A DNA stretch of 64,000 nucleotides. Origin: Phycisphaerales bacterium (GTDB lineage Bacteria; Planctomycetota; Phycisphaerae; Phycisphaerales; SM1A02). The translations under genes and the position numbers were made by a program. The DNA is taken from positions 1 to 64,000 of the forward strand of contig JASMLR010000006.1 of assembly GCA_030748575.1 (NCBI GenBank), in the 5' to 3' direction. This document shows, in pieces, positions 1 through 60,070 of the stretch. The notes beneath the pieces were generated by a model. It ran no database searches. It was not told the DNA's origin and saw only the letters and a list, made by a program, of their open reading frames with translations. Every line of letters starts with the position of its first letter. The first letter of the stretch is position 1.

Positions 1-1188
1 ACAGGGCTCAACATCCAATCTGGTACCAGTCAGACGCTCCACGGCGCGGAGGCGGCTCCGCTCTTCGTGGTCACAGAAACTGATGGCCGTCCCCTCGGCG
101 CCTGCTCGCGCCGTGCGACCGATGCGGTGCACATAGGTCTCAGGCACCATCGGCATTTCGTAGTTGACGACATGTGACACCCTGGCGACATCGATACCGC
201 GCGCTGCAATGTCCGTCGCGATCAACAAAGGAAGTTCGCCGGACTTGAATCGATCCAGCGACCGCGTGCGGGCGTTCTGACTCTTGTTCCCATGGATGGC
301 CTCTGCAAGGAGACCGGACCTCTGAAGCCGCTGGACCAACTTGTCGGCGCCCCGCTTGGTTCGGGTGAAGACGAGCGTTCGGTCCATCGCCGCGCGTCGA
401 ATCAGTCGCTCAAGCAGCACGGGCTTGTGCTTGCGGGACACGTGAAAGACCGCCTGACTGATCAGCTCGACGGTCGAGGCCACGGGGTCGACTTCGATCG
501 GAACCGGGTCCGTCAGAATGGTGTCAGCGAGCGAACGAATCTCGGGCGGCATCGTTGCCGAGAAGAACAGCGTCTGCCGCTGCCTGGGGAGCCGCTCGAT
601 GATGCGGCGGATATCCGGAATGAACCCCATGTCGAGCATGTGGTCCGCTTCGTCGAGCACGAGCACTTCGATCGCCCGCATGTCGATCAAGCCCTGGTTC
701 ATCAGGTCAAGCAACCGGCCCGGCGTCGCGACGATGACGTCCACGCCCCCACGCATCACGCGGACCTGTCCGGCCTGGCTGACGCCGCCGAAGACGACGA
801 GGTGCTTGAGGTGCAGGTTGTCGCCGTACTTCCTGAAACTCTCGTAGATCTGGCTTGCCAGTTCGCGTGTCGGGGCCAGAACCAGTGCCCTCGGAAGACA
901 TGGACGCTGCGCGCCACGCACGCGGCCGCCCCGGCGTCCCCGCCCGGATCTCTGGTCACGCCTGGGGGGCTTGACAGGTTTCGGCTGCTCACCCTGAGCC
1001 AGGTGGTGGAGGATGGGAAGCGCGAACGCGCCCGTCTTCCCCGTGCCGGTCTGCGCGCACCCGAGGACGTCGCGGCCATCAAGAATGGTCGGGATGGCGG
1101 TGGCTTGAATCGGAGTGGGCGTGTCGTATCCCGCGGCAGCAACCGCGCGAACGATGGGCGTGGAGAGCCCCAGATCATGAAAGTGCAT
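1..1188 (-). CDS. rhlE: DEAD-box ATP-dependent RNA helicase, RhlE-like (3' end cut by window)
   Basis: ATP-dependent RNA helicase of superfamily 2, acting in RNA remodelling (ribosome assembly or mRNA turnover in the family). Reading the minus strand from the ATG at 1188 gives, in order, the Q-motif region (TPTPIQATAIP), Walker A CAQTGTGKTGA, PTRELASQI, the GGV and TPGRLLDLM motifs, Walker B VLDEADHMLDMGF and motif III SAT. The last bases of the window still encode the motif VI helicase signature HRIGRTARAGAEG. The C-terminus lies beyond position 1. A short Arg/Gly-rich insert (RSGRGRRGGRVRG) sits between motifs I and Ia, which is unusual because such stretches are normally C-terminal. AAGGA lies about a dozen bases before the ATG. 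The RhlE subgroup is inferred; CshA- or DeaD-type helicases are alternatives. Confidence 0.93.
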   Translation of the reverse strand, partial: MHFHDLGLSTPIVRAVAAAGYDTPTPIQATAIPTILDGRDVLGCAQTGTGKTGAFALPILHHLAQGEQPKPVKPPRRDQRSGRGRRGGRVRGAQRPCLPRALVLAPTRELASQIYESFRKYGDNLHLKHLVVFGGVSQAGQVRVMRGGVDVIVATPGRLLDLMNQGLIDMRAIEVLVLDEADHMLDMGFIPDIRRIIERLPRQRQTLFFSATMPPEIRSLADTILTDPVPIEVDPVASTVELISQAVFHVSRKHKPVLLERLIRRAAMDRTLVFTRTKRGADKLVQRLQRSGLLAEAIHGNKSQNARTRSLDRFKSGELPLLIATDIAARGIDVARVSHVVNYEMPMVPETYVHRIGRTARAGAEGTAISFCDHEERSRLRAVERLTGTRLDVEPC

Positions 1189-1414
1189 GTTGTGGTGTCC
1201 TTGGACGTCCGGATCTTGCAGGCTTCCGGTGGCCTCTGGGGATCGGGATGTCTCAGGCGAGCGTGCGTGATCCGGAACGATGCCGGCTGTTGCTCACGCG
1301 ACTGATTGCCTGCTCAGCGGCGGACAACGCCTGCCGAGCCCGGCAATGCTATCAGAAACCTCGGGCGAATGGAACTCCATGCAGAGTAGACCCCACGCCT
1401 CGATAGCAAACACA

Positions 1415-2682: not shown

Positions 2683-5007
2683 ATGCACCATTGTTCATCG
2701 ACGTACGCCGCACGCGTGATCACTGTCGCCACGTTGGCGCTGTCCGCAGGGCCCGCGCTCGCAGCCGACGTGTCGGTCAAGGCGGCCTGCGAGTCGCTCA
2801 GCCTGGAGGCCTGCACACTGCAGACCCTGCAGATGCGTCCGGGAGACGGGGACACCCTTCGGCTCGATCTGGTGACCTCGGGACAGGACCGCAGCCTGGT
2901 GCTGTGGCCGCACGACAACCGCAGCGACAACTTCCGCCTCATCGTGCAGGAGTCCGACGGTTCGTTCACCGAAGAAACGCCGGGCCCCGTCACGACCTAC
3001 CGCGGAACAGATGTCAATGACACGGCGGTCATCATTGCCGTCGGATTCGAAGACGACGGCTTTCGGCTGCGGCTCATTGAAGCCGACGGAAGCCAGTGGT
3101 TCGCTGAGCCGCTCATAGACCGCCTCGAAGGCGCCGACATCAATGACTACGCGGTGTACCGCGGTGAAGCCATCATCTCACCCGAGAACATCTGCCCAAT
3201 CGACGAGGCCTGGCGCGCCGGCGGCATGCCCTCGACCGACTTTGACGGCACCGGCGGGTACCGCGGCACGCAACTGGCCGCCGAGATGGCGGTCGACGCC
3301 GACTTCGAGTTCTTTCAGCAGTATGGATCCGTCTCCGGCGTCGAGAATCGCGTCAATGCAGTCATCAACAGCGTGAACTCGATGTATGAGTCGCAGTGCT
3401 TCCTGACCCACGAGATTCAGGCCATTGTCGTCCGCAGTACCAGCGACGATCCCTACAGCAGCAACAGCATTGAAACGCGTTTGGACCAGTTGCAGAATGA
3501 CTGGAACAGTGGCAACCACCCCGGTATTGCACGTGACATCGTCCACCTCTTCACAGGCGTGGACACCGGAAGCACGATCGGGCTGGCCTACCTGGGCGCC
3601 GTCTGCTCCAGCAGCGAGTATGGCGTTGTGCAATCCAACTGCTGCGGGTCCTTCGGCTGCGCCACGGACCTCTCGGCCCACGAGATGGGGCACAACTGGA
3701 ACGCGGGCCACTGCTCATGCCCCTCAAACACAATGAACCCGTCGCTGACGTGCGCTAACAACTTCACGCAGGGCTCACGCAACACCATCATGGCCTTCGC
3801 TGACAGCATCTCCGGATGCCTGCACGTACCGGGCCCCTCTGGCGCGTGCTGCCTTGGAGCCAACTGCCAGTACCTGACGCAGGGCGAATGCACCGACATC
3901 GGCGGCGCGTATCAGGGTGACGGCACCGACTGCGGCTCAACCGAGTGCAATCTGGGTACGGGCGCCTGCTGCCTCTCCAGCGGCTCGTGCGCCACGGTCA
4001 GCGAGAGTCAGTGCAACAACGTCGGCGGCACGTATCAGGGCGACAACGTCCCGTGTGACGACGAACTCTGCGCTCTGCCCCCGACAGGTGCATGCTGCTA
4101 CGGCTCCACCTGCACGGTGACGGAAGAGCCGGACTGCGGCGGCACCTACATGGGCGACGAAACCACCTGTGACAACGACCCCTGCACCGCCAACAACTTC
4201 GCTGGCATCGGCTGGAAGGTCGTCGGCACGAATCTGGTGGACGATCCTCAGGACACCTGGACCGTGGACGTCTACGCCATGGTTGGCGCCGGAGAGCGGA
4301 TCGACGCCGTCGCGGGCAATCAGGACCAGCAGAAGACGGTCTCGTCCTCGGCCGGATTCTGGCAGAGCACCTTTGGTGGCCCCACCTCCATCGAGTGCAA
4401 CCCCGCGTTCTACCCCCTCGCCCCGGATCTTGAGTTCGACAGCCGCGTCACCATCGGCGCGCTTGACAGTTCGGGCAATCCCTTCGGCGAGAACGTCCTG
4501 AGTACGATCGGCATCGACTTCAGCAACTTCGAGAATGGCGGCGCCATCTCGGCCAACAACGGCACCTGGTATGTCCTCGCCTCGGACGCGCAGGGAGAAG
4601 CCCAGCCCGTCGTGACTGACGACTGCTCAAGCGGCCACGGCGTGCTGATCGGCCGGCTGACGGCCTATGGCCTCAGCAGCGAGGTCATGGTTGAAGCCCT
4701 CTTCCAGGGCCGCAACGTGCTGGGAACGACGTTCCAGGCCAACGCCGCCTCCACAGGAACCCTTGGCAGTTGGGCCGACTGCAACGAGAACGGCACCAGC
4801 GACGCGTGCGACATCGCAGGCGGCGGCAGCCAGGACGCCAACGGCAACGGCATCCCGGACGAGTGCGAAACGTCAGGGTGCCAGTGGGATCTCAACGGCG
4901 ACGGCGGCACAACGGTCGACGATCTGCTGATGCTCATTGCCGACTTCGGAACGACCTACGACGTCGACGACCTGCTCGCATTGCTTGCGGAGTTCGGCTG
5001 CAGTTGA
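2683..5007 (+). CDS. Secreted metzincin-like metallopeptidase with cysteine repeats and dockerin-like C-terminus
   Basis: A 774-residue exported protein. The ATG at 2683 is preferred over an in-frame one at 2626 because AAGAAGAGAG precedes it and it opens directly into a signal peptide ending PALA-AD. A beta-rich prodomain-like part is followed by the zinc motif HEMGHNWNAGH (residues 333-343) and a Met-turn NTIMAF, as in reprolysin/ADAM-type M12 peptidases. Next come three GACC cysteine modules (about 387-500) and a domain (about 506-690) that recurs in the PEP-CTERM-like protein at 59414. Then there is a CNENGTSDACD…NGNGIPDEC repeat pair and a dockerin-like WDLNGDGGTTVDDLL…DVDDLLALLAEFG end. 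The role is presumably extracellular protein degradation at the cell surface. The substrate and the partner bound by the dockerin-like end are unknown. A strong terminator follows. Confidence 0.88.
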   Translation: MHHCSSTYAARVITVATLALSAGPALAADVSVKAACESLSLEACTLQTLQMRPGDGDTLRLDLVTSGQDRSLVLWPHDNRSDNFRLIVQESDGSFTEETPGPVTTYRGTDVNDTAVIIAVGFEDDGFRLRLIEADGSQWFAEPLIDRLEGADINDYAVYRGEAIISPENICPIDEAWRAGGMPSTDFDGTGGYRGTQLAAEMAVDADFEFFQQYGSVSGVENRVNAVINSVNSMYESQCFLTHEIQAIVVRSTSDDPYSSNSIETRLDQLQNDWNSGNHPGIARDIVHLFTGVDTGSTIGLAYLGAVCSSSEYGVVQSNCCGSFGCATDLSAHEMGHNWNAGHCSCPSNTMNPSLTCANNFTQGSRNTIMAFADSISGCLHVPGPSGACCLGANCQYLTQGECTDIGGAYQGDGTDCGSTECNLGTGACCLSSGSCATVSESQCNNVGGTYQGDNVPCDDELCALPPTGACCYGSTCTVTEEPDCGGTYMGDETTCDNDPCTANNFAGIGWKVVGTNLVDDPQDTWTVDVYAMVGAGERIDAVAGNQDQQKTVSSSAGFWQSTFGGPTSIECNPAFYPLAPDLEFDSRVTIGALDSSGNPFGENVLSTIGIDFSNFENGGAISANNGTWYVLASDAQGEAQPVVTDDCSSGHGVLIGRLTAYGLSSEVMVEALFQGRNVLGTTFQANAASTGTLGSWADCNENGTSDACDIAGGGSQDANGNGIPDECETSGCQWDLNGDGGTTVDDLLMLIADFGTTYDVDDLLALLAEFGCS
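3841..4185 (+). repeat. Three tandem GACC cysteine modules inside the metallopeptidase
   Basis: Three units of about 35-40 residues start at 3841, 3961 and 4087. Each follows G-A-C-C, then a cysteine, a second cysteine, G-x-Y-x-G-D, and two closing cysteines. The units differ at many positions, so this is an old protein-level repeat. Six cysteines per unit suggest small disulphide-bonded modules. Confidence 0.85.
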
Positions 5008-56795: not shown

Positions 56796-56826
56796 TGGAC
56801 ATGGGGCCGGCGCGGTAGGATCAACC

Positions 56827-58737
56827 ATGCCCCACCACCAGACGCCGTATCGCTCCCCGGATTCCACCTCCTCCGATGAATCGACCGGCGCACCACAGGA
56901 AGACGGCTTTCTGAGCCAGTTCGGACGCTCGGCGGAGACGACCGAGTTCTTCTCGCCAATCCCGGACGGCTATCGGCCCGGCGCAACGGCCTTCGTCGCC
57001 GTCATGGGCACGGTCATGTCCGGGCTCGGGAAGGGCATCTTCAGCGCGTCGCTGGCCAAGTTGATCAAGGGGAAGGGCCTGCGGGTGGCGCCGATCAAAC
57101 TCGAGGGATACCTGAACGTCGACAGCGGCACGTTGAATCCGTATCGGCACGGAGAGGTCTTTGTGCTCGACGACGGAACCGAGTGCGACATGGACCTCGG
57201 CACCTATGAACGCCTGCTCGACCAGAATCTCACTCGGAACAACTTCACGACTGCGGGGCAGATCTACACCGAGATTCTCGACCGCGAGCGGCGAGGGGGC
57301 TACCTCGGCCGCGACGTGCAGATGATTCCGCACGTCACCGGCGAAGTGAAGCGGCGGCTGCGGGAACTCGCCATGACCGGCGGCGAAGACGGCGGCCCGG
57401 TGGACGTCGTTTTCATCGAGGTCGGAGGAACGGTGGGCGACTATGAAAACGGCTTCTACATTGAAGCCCTGCGGGAACTCGCCTTTGAGGAAGGCAGGGA
57501 GAACTTCTGCTTTGTGGCGCTCACGTACGTACTCGAGCCGCCCGCGCTGGGAGAGCAGAAGTCCAAAGCGGCCCAACTTGGCATCAAGCGTCTGATGGAG
57601 TCGGGCATTCAGCCTCAGATCATCGCCTGCCGCGCAGAGCAGCCTGTGACGGAGACGGTTCGGCAGAAGGTTGCGATGTTCACGAACGTCCCGCTGCCGC
57701 GTGTCTTCTCCATGCACGATCGCGAGTCGATCTACTCGATTCCCGAGTCTATGCGAGCGGAAAGCCTTGACCGTGAAGTACTGACCATTCTGGACCGGCA
57801 CCACCTCGTCAAGCCCGTCGAGGAAGACCGCGCTCGGGCGGCATGGCAGAACTACGCCACCGGCATCCGCGCGTCCCGGCGACACACCGTACGGCTCGGC
57901 ATTCTCGGCAAGTACACGGCGCTTCGCGATGCCTATGCATCCATCGACAAGGCCATCGAGCACGTCTGCACACACCTGTCCGTCGAACCGGACGTGCGGT
58001 GGATTGACGTTACGGACTTCACCACAGACAACGCGGGTACCGAGCTTGCGACGCACGACCTGCATGCGGTCATCGTGCCGGGCGGGTTCGGCGAGCGGGG
58101 CGTGGAGGGGAAGGTCGCAGGCGTGCAGTGGATTCGTGAGCAGCAGATTCCGTTTCTCGGCATCTGCCTTGGATTCCAGGTGGCCGTCATCGAGTACGCC
58201 CGCCACGTCGCGGGCATTCGGGATGCCCATTCCACCGAATTCCGACAAGGTGACGCCGGCGCCGTCATCTCGGAACTGCCGGAGCAGAAGGAAATCGAAG
58301 GACTCGGAGGAACCATGCGGCTGGGTGGGCAGGACGTTGCCCTGACACCGGGCTCCATGGCATCCTGGCTCTACGGCGGCGAGACGCTGGTCCGGGCGCG
58401 GTTCCGGCACCGGTATGAGGTCGATCCCACCCACATCGAGCATCTGGAGCAGGCGGGGCTGGTGTTCTCCGGCAGGCATCCCAAGCATCCCATCATGCAG
58501 GTCTTGGAACTGCCACGCTCGGCGCATCCCTACTTCGTCGGCGCCCAGTTCCACCCGGAATTGACGAGTCGCCCGTTGCGACCACATCCCATGTTCATGG
58601 GGCTTCTGGCTGCTGCCGTGCGGCGGGCTTCCCCCGGCCTCTCCCGGGGCGAGGTGTCCACCCGGTGGCTGCCCGAGGACGACGGCGCCGACGATGGCGA
58701 CCCTGCGGCGGCGGTTCCCACGACAGCGGCATGCTGA
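56827..58737 (+). CDS. pyrG: CTP synthase with extended termini and divergent active-site segments
   Basis: UTP plus glutamine and ATP to CTP. The 636-residue chain has about 53 extra N-terminal residues before the P-loop segment (VMGTVMSGLGKGIFSASLA in place of the usual TGGVVSSLGKGI). The next motif reads KLEGYLNVDSGTLNPYRHGE where other bacteria have K-DPYLNVDPGTM-P-QHGE. The Asp ligand in VDSGT and Glu in FIEVGGTVGDYE are kept. The glutaminase half has Cys447 in LGICLGFQ and HPE in GAQFHPEL. TAGGATC precedes the ATG, fixing the start. The C-terminal 30 residues are disordered. Confidence 0.93.
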   Translation: MPHHQTPYRSPDSTSSDESTGAPQEDGFLSQFGRSAETTEFFSPIPDGYRPGATAFVAVMGTVMSGLGKGIFSASLAKLIKGKGLRVAPIKLEGYLNVDSGTLNPYRHGEVFVLDDGTECDMDLGTYERLLDQNLTRNNFTTAGQIYTEILDRERRGGYLGRDVQMIPHVTGEVKRRLRELAMTGGEDGGPVDVVFIEVGGTVGDYENGFYIEALRELAFEEGRENFCFVALTYVLEPPALGEQKSKAAQLGIKRLMESGIQPQIIACRAEQPVTETVRQKVAMFTNVPLPRVFSMHDRESIYSIPESMRAESLDREVLTILDRHHLVKPVEEDRARAAWQNYATGIRASRRHTVRLGILGKYTALRDAYASIDKAIEHVCTHLSVEPDVRWIDVTDFTTDNAGTELATHDLHAVIVPGGFGERGVEGKVAGVQWIREQQIPFLGICLGFQVAVIEYARHVAGIRDAHSTEFRQGDAGAVISELPEQKEIEGLGGTMRLGGQDVALTPGSMASWLYGGETLVRARFRHRYEVDPTHIEHLEQAGLVFSGRHPKHPIMQVLELPRSAHPYFVGAQFHPELTSRPLRPHPMFMGLLAAAVRRASPGLSRGEVSTRWLPEDDGADDGDPAAAVPTTAAC

Positions 58738-59302: not shown

Positions 59303-59339
59303 CAAAAGAAACCCCGCCGCAGCGAGTGCTGCGGCGGGG
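59303..59339 (-). terminator. Rho-independent terminator of the PEP-CTERM-like gene
   Basis: On the minus strand CCCCGCCGCAGC pairs perfectly with GCTGCGGCGGGG around ACTC, followed by TTTCTTTT. It lies 74 bases past the stop codon. Confidence 0.92.
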
Positions 59340-59413
59340 CCAGAGTTGCGTGGACTGAACCGCTGGCCTCCACCCACCGAAGCGAGCGGAGAACCAAAGT
59401 CACGTCATCGCGT

Positions 59414-60070
59414 TCAGCGACGACGGCGGCGACCGGCAAGGCCGGCAACACCGAGAAGGGCCAACGCGCCAGGGGCGGGAACCCATGACACGTTCAGGGC
59501 CTGATACGTCTCGCCGTTGGCGTCCTTCCCCTGAAGGCTGACATAGCCTTCAACGGAAGCACCGGTGGCGACCGTGAACTGACCGATCAGGACCATGCCG
59601 CCCAGTTCGCCGCCCTGCGGGTCAACGGGTGTGACGAACCAGGAACCGTTGTTGGTTGTCAGGTTGCCACCAGCTTCGAAGTTTGAGAAGTCGATGCCGA
59701 TGGTCTTGAGTTCATTGGACGCAAACGGATACCCGTTGGCGTAGAGCGAACCCACGGTCACGTACGAGTCCCACTCGACCGAGGGGGCAAGCGGGAAGAA
59801 CGCGTTGTTGATGGACAGCGACGTCGCGCCACCCAAACCGTTCTGGTAGAACGCGCCCGACGAGGCCACAATGTTCAAGGTGTTTTCGGAGTTTCCGAAA
59901 ACAGCGTCGATCCGAGCACCTTCGTCGACATTCGCATAGATGCGATAGGTATCTCCGGTGCCCACGTCTGAATGGACCAACTCGACCGTAAACCCGTTGA
60001 AGGGGCTCGCTTGGGCCAGTCCGGCAAGCGTCAGCGCCGCGCCGGTTCCAAGCAGTGTCATTGCTTTCAT
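59414..60070 (-). CDS. Exported protein with PEP-CTERM-like sorting tail
   Basis: A 218-residue secreted protein. The ATG at 60070 has GGAGGAG upstream and opens a signal peptide ending AQA-SPF. The body (about residues 23-190) is beta-rich and matches the domain at residues 506-690 of the metallopeptidase at 2683. Shared stretches include ARIDAV-GN / ERIDAVAGN, FFPLAPSVEWDS / FYPLAPDLEFDS, and TIGIDFSNFE-GG followed by NNG-W. The C-terminus, VPAPGALALLGVAGLAGRRRRR, is a PEP-CTERM-type tail: motif, hydrophobic helix, arginine cluster. Such tails are cut by exosortase-type enzymes. The function of the shared domain is unknown; its single gene has its own strong terminator. Confidence 0.82.
   Translation of the reverse strand: MKAMTLLGTGAALTLAGLAQASPFNGFTVELVHSDVGTGDTYRIYANVDEGARIDAVFGNSENTLNIVASSGAFYQNGLGGATSLSINNAFFPLAPSVEWDSYVTVGSLYANGYPFASNELKTIGIDFSNFEAGGNLTTNNGSWFVTPVDPQGGELGGMVLIGQFTVATGASVEGYVSLQGKDANGETYQALNVSWVPAPGALALLGVAGLAGRRRRR

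Follow-up and report, generated by a model that had tools for sequence, protein, structure and literature searches.

A single domain family, found in several architectures, is shared by a protein of 218 residues and a secreted metallopeptidase encoded within the window, by which we mean the whole 64,000-nucleotide stretch analysed here (positions 1 to 64,000 of contig JASMLR010000006.1 from a Phycisphaerales bacterium). We infer that this domain works at the cell surface as a module for binding or retention, without catalytic activity and with its attachment set by the tail that follows it, and we give this reading a probability of roughly 55%; its surface location, its lack of catalysis and its binding function would each belong to that reading. 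The coordinates of the features discussed below are collected in Table 1.

One domain in two secreted proteins

The sequence-only reading had aligned residues 23-190 of the 218-residue protein with residues 506-690 of the product of 2683-5007, and this match was reproduced by BLASTP (125 bits, E=1e-37, 48% identity over 162 residues). All motifs listed in that reading were present, and the similarity covered the entire domain rather than short low-complexity stretches. A profile built from the 12 copies in the same genome placed the domain at positions 4204-4752 (residues 508-690) and 59489-59995 of the window, with limits close to those first proposed. The two architectures described earlier were also confirmed, with the domain standing alone before a sorting tail in one protein and following a peptidase and cysteine modules in the other.

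The domain had been called undescribed, and this description held for the 70 members examined, none of which gave a convincing match in Pfam or NCBIfam. No convincing sequence match to the shared domain was obtained from the PDB, and no account of it was found in the open-access literature searched. Weak matches to guanine deaminase, ANF receptor and further families involved at most 3 members each, all under cut-off, and were rejected. TRAP/MtrB, which appeared in the PDB profile search, was also set aside as a short strand resemblance, with the match spanning only about 30-50 residues around the VLIAQFT strand; native TRAP scored E 0.3 or worse, and 2e-6 was reached only where MtrB chains were longer (168 residues) and matched in two stretches. 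In the window, this resemblance (VLIxQFT...G, about 30 residues) lies at 59570-59610 on the minus strand and was judged to be a chance similarity between strands.

Translation of the gene for the 218-residue protein gave a signal peptide, the shared domain and a PEP-CTERM-like tail, in that order. The coordinates first given for this gene are right; its strand, minus, had been left unstated. The gene is probably a single-gene unit, since a strong intrinsic terminator comes after it and tRNA-Glu and tRNA-Met genes flank it. Elsewhere in the window, two long open frames, at 56821-58587 (minus) and 292-1305 (plus), had no Pfam match at E 0.001.

Table 1. Features of the two domain-bearing genes in the window, and the exosortase gene of the same genome
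Feature	Position	Strand	Basis or remark
Gene of the 218-residue protein	59414..60070	minus	Translation; ATG at 60070, stop at 59414
Shine-Dalgarno-like GGGAGGAG (ribosome-binding site)	60088-60081	minus	5' of the gene of the 218-residue protein
Predicted signal peptide MKAMTLLGTGAALTLAGLAQA	60008..60070	minus	Judged by eye from sequence
Shared domain, single copy, residues 23-193	59492..60004	minus	Profile match E 1.4e-71; AlphaFold2 pLDDT 96.6
PEP-CTERM-like tail VPAPGALALLGVAGLAGRRRRR	59417..59482	minus	Weak PF07589 match, under cut-off; one exosortase in genome
Intrinsic terminator 3' of the gene of the 218-residue protein	59310..59341	minus	14-pair stem then T run; fold z-score -4.7
Secreted M12B metallopeptidase with shared domain, 774 aa	2683..5007	plus	Pfam Reprolysin_5 E 1.7e-20
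M12B catalytic domain	3286..3798	plus	Pfam and sequence
Zinc motif HEMGHNWNAGH	3679-3711	plus	Sequence
Three cysteine modules, GACCxG..C......C..GG.Y.GD...C....C	3841..4185	plus	Sequence reading
Shared domain, protease-attached copy, residues 508-690	4204..4752	plus	Profile match E 8.0e-81
Thrombospondin-3-like calcium linker DCNENG...DECE	4777..4869	plus	Acidic and cysteine positions invariant in 20 relatives
Dockerin-like tail	4879..5004	plus	First calcium loop kept, second degenerate
Exosortase with C-terminal extension	own genome, C44:150467-151261		Adjoins polysaccharide-export gene

The product of 2683-5007 was identified as an M12B reprolysin by its Reprolysin_5 score (74.5 bits, cut-off 27) and its intact HExxHxxxxxH zinc motif. 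Its cysteine modules had no Pfam match; the same repeated module was also seen in trypsin-like proteases, again with no match in Pfam. The tail of this protease scored under the cut-off of Dockerin_1 (PF00404; 13.6 bits vs 22.9, E 0.08) and is thus termed dockerin-like here. Two DxDGDxDVDD calcium loops are retained in several relatives, the second of which was lost in the protease of the window.

Copies, tails and the exosortase

The paralogue count gave exactly 12 domain copies in the 2.38-Mb genome (97% complete), with pairwise identities of 30-71%. Four of the 12 consist of a single domain and a PEP-CTERM-like tail, two of these being adjacent on contig 11, and two others, near each other on contig 55, combine a single domain with a dockerin-like tail. 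C-terminal positions are occupied in one M12B protease and in three trypsin-like proteases, of which two, adjacent on contig 11, gave weak Trypsin_2 matches and the third (contig 22), having no Pfam match, was assigned from its sequence. The remaining two copies lie in other multidomain proteins: the first is N-terminal, in a chain that also has calcium linkers and a dockerin-like end, and the second stands ahead of FG-GAP repeats. The domain is thus reused on unrelated partners (M12B peptidase, trypsin-like proteases, FG-GAP repeats) or stands alone. All of these contexts are secreted or surface-type, in line with the surface role that had been suggested for it.

Using a pattern and a profile built in this analysis, we sorted core Phycisphaerales proteins whose C-terminus could be read, in a sample skewed to strong matches. 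PEP-CTERM-like tails were found in 55 proteins, dockerin-like pairs in 46, neither in 2 and both in none; the two kinds of tail are mutually exclusive among the sampled proteins. In marine Phycisphaerales, several single-domain genes with PEP-CTERM-like tails often stand in tandem arrays.

The tail of the 218-residue protein, VPAPGALALLGVAGLAGRRRRR, has the PEP-CTERM layout of Pro-x-Pro, a hydrophobic stretch and a basic cluster at the C-terminal end. The protein resembles PEP-CTERM proteins (TIGR02595, PF07589) in its signal peptide, extracellular domain, Pro-x-Pro, hydrophobic stretch, arginine cluster and genomic exosortase, but it reads PAP rather than PEP and scores under the curated cut-offs (PF07589, 13.8 bits vs 20.7; TIGR02595, 13.9 vs 16). 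The single exosortase of the genome (PF09721 E 6.4e-45; TIGR02602 124.7 bits, over the cut-off of 105.55) is nearest to XrtD/XrtW-type models, under their cut-offs, and its presence is consistent with the PEP-CTERM-like tail.

The PEP-CTERM/exosortase (EpsH) system has been described and tied to exopolysaccharide (PMC1569441), and here the exosortase gene adjoins a polysaccharide-export gene. Together with the beta-sandwich fold, these links would fit a polysaccharide- or matrix-binding module, by which protease and anchored protein alike would dock to algal particles or to exopolysaccharide made by the cell itself. We regard this specific form of binding as doubtful, however, since no Pfam carbohydrate-binding family was matched and carbohydrate-binding modules were not at the head of the structural list.

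Distribution across two phyla

The shared domain is a real one, and its spread was followed across Planctomycetota by profile search. Each of the 9 same-genus genomes, the present one included, carries 5-14 copies. In the rest of the family 9 of 28 genomes had matches, some of them weak, and in other families of the order 2 of 24, both very weak. An even sample of the phylum yielded the domain in 9 of 392 genomes, of which three belong to a distant family; scoring in this sample was limited to the nine best candidates of each genome, and its copy counts are lower bounds. In that distant planctomycete family, the domain was joined to a different C-terminal domain that has no name. No relative was found in viral contigs.

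The domain had also been described as lineage-specific, a description that we reject given its presence in that distant family and in 152 of 399 Flavobacteriales genomes. In about two thirds of these 152 the best E was 1e-15 or lower. In a genome collection, 44 of 46 domain loci belonged to Planctomycetota and two to Flavobacteriales MAGs, which hold 39 and 19 copies. By these genome counts, the domain is common to two phyla.

Flavobacteriales have conserved single-domain proteins whose T9SS sorting tail scores over the Por_Secre_tail cut-off, and other domain proteins of this order end in dockerin-like pairs. These T9SS type A proteins carry the same domain alone before a C-terminal sorting tail, but use another secretion and anchoring system; the position before the tail is therefore kept while the sorting system changes. 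One conserved single-domain protein with a T9SS-type tail is about 330 residues long, and frames of this length occur in very many genomes of Flavobacteriales.

A tree of the domain kept the groups of the two phyla largely apart. Protease-attached copies formed one well-supported group (37 rows) and PEP-CTERM copies fell apart from it, indicating long-kept subfamilies. Five positions of the aligned 158-residue segment (D68, S69, G74, W111 and Q147) were kept in 92-100% of 140 copies from the two phyla. That the two phyla keep a single set of motifs so strongly exceeds what a spacer would need, which makes it improbable that the domain is purely a structural spacer or stability domain, without specific ligand, spread by duplication and domain shuffling, even though the tandem arrays of single-domain genes and the many repeats in giant Flavobacteriales proteins fit repeat-type spacers.

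Predicted fold and possible functions

Structure prediction with 70 relatives gave a confident AlphaFold2 model (pLDDT 96.6, pTM 0.91), in which the domain is a beta-sandwich and its highly conserved middle consists mostly of ordered loops. This dense conservation in a middle rich in loops (WDSxVTIG ... GxW) might reflect a need for stability, or even some activity of another kind. Foldseek returned no structural match below E 0.001, and a structural search of viral proteins likewise gave nothing below that threshold. After structural re-alignment, the top entry was a type II cohesin (1tyj, Z 5.9, rmsd 3.8 over 121 residues), and the top rows were mostly cohesins, with yeast Als adhesins as the next largest group, all at Z of 5.9 or less. 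Values of Z below 8 may reflect merely a common fold rather than kinship and, because the structural matches are weak, having a beta-sandwich in common may be no guide to function. These nearest solved folds are all binding modules, and the weak resemblance of the predicted fold to cohesins and Als adhesins makes a role in adhesion or matrix binding plausible.

Most of the top structural neighbours being cohesins, we considered whether the domain is itself an unrecognised cohesin, in which case anchored single-domain proteins would bind the dockerin-like tails of secreted proteases and of other dockerin proteins and assemble a surface protease complex comparable to the hypothetical 'planctosome'. 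That model was proposed for freshwater Nemodlikiaceae (Phycisphaerae) and relies on recognised cohesins and a lamin-tail anchor (PMC6461901). The present genus shares with it the class Phycisphaerae, secreted M12B peptidases, dockerin-type modules and a proposed surface attachment, but has no recognisable cohesin and shows PEP-CTERM-like anchoring instead of the lamin tail. The own genome contains at least 9 dockerins over the Pfam cut-off, yet no recognisable cohesin turned up, either there or across the 9 same-genus genomes. This situation and the dockerin-based M12B complex proposed in PMC6461901 make dockerin binding attractive, and the distribution of tails also suits it, as anchored copies lack dockerin tails and secreted copies have them.

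We nevertheless consider an unrecognised cohesin unlikely. Like the cohesin of cellulosomes (PF00963), the shared domain is a beta-sandwich of similar length in genomes with dockerins, but it often lies in the same chain as a dockerin-like tail and has no profile similarity to cohesin (hhalign probability 0.1%, with a cohesin profile of four sequences only; no match to PF00963 in 70 members). The low Z values could stem from the common fold, and dockerins are far more widespread, occurring in 60 of 61 genomes (the own genome and its relatives), than the domain, which occurs in only 20; most dockerins there therefore have another partner or none. We do not class the shared domain as a cohesin. 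A model of the domain together with the dockerin-like tail had low confidence (pLDDT 64.6) and is therefore uninformative on docking within one molecule. It is also quite unlikely, in our estimate, that the domain fills the place of the missing cohesin in marine Phycisphaerales, and perhaps in Flavobacteriales, as an unrelated or highly diverged beta-sandwich capturing dockerin-like tails; if it did, a set of secreted proteases would be presented at the surface of the cell by the PEP-CTERM-anchored single-domain proteins.

In the preferred reading, that of a surface binding or retention module, the domain would be a compact extracellular beta-sandwich of about 170 residues and not an enzyme. 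Exported single-domain copies would be held at the cell envelope through the exosortase-dependent PEP-CTERM-like tail, and the remaining copies would ride on secreted proteases and on large proteins ending in a dockerin-like calcium-binding pair. Dockerin-tailed proteins would be released bearing this calcium-loop tail. Most likely, the domain would tether these proteins to one and the same ligand, on a surface or in a matrix, or to each other, and particulate protein could then be proteolysed beside the cell.

Many Flavobacteriales, like the marine Phycisphaerales with small genomes, are degraders that live in association with particles and algae, and we know of no account of how the secreted proteases of such degraders stay near the cell. 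With 12 copies in 2.4 Mb the domain is abundant, and neither Pfam nor NCBIfam has a name for it. It connects proteases to anchored proteins and spans two phyla, with a switch of sorting tails between them. We believe that it offers a concrete, testable candidate for the way in which proteins are retained at the surface, and equally for the missing dockerin partner in cohesin-less genomes.
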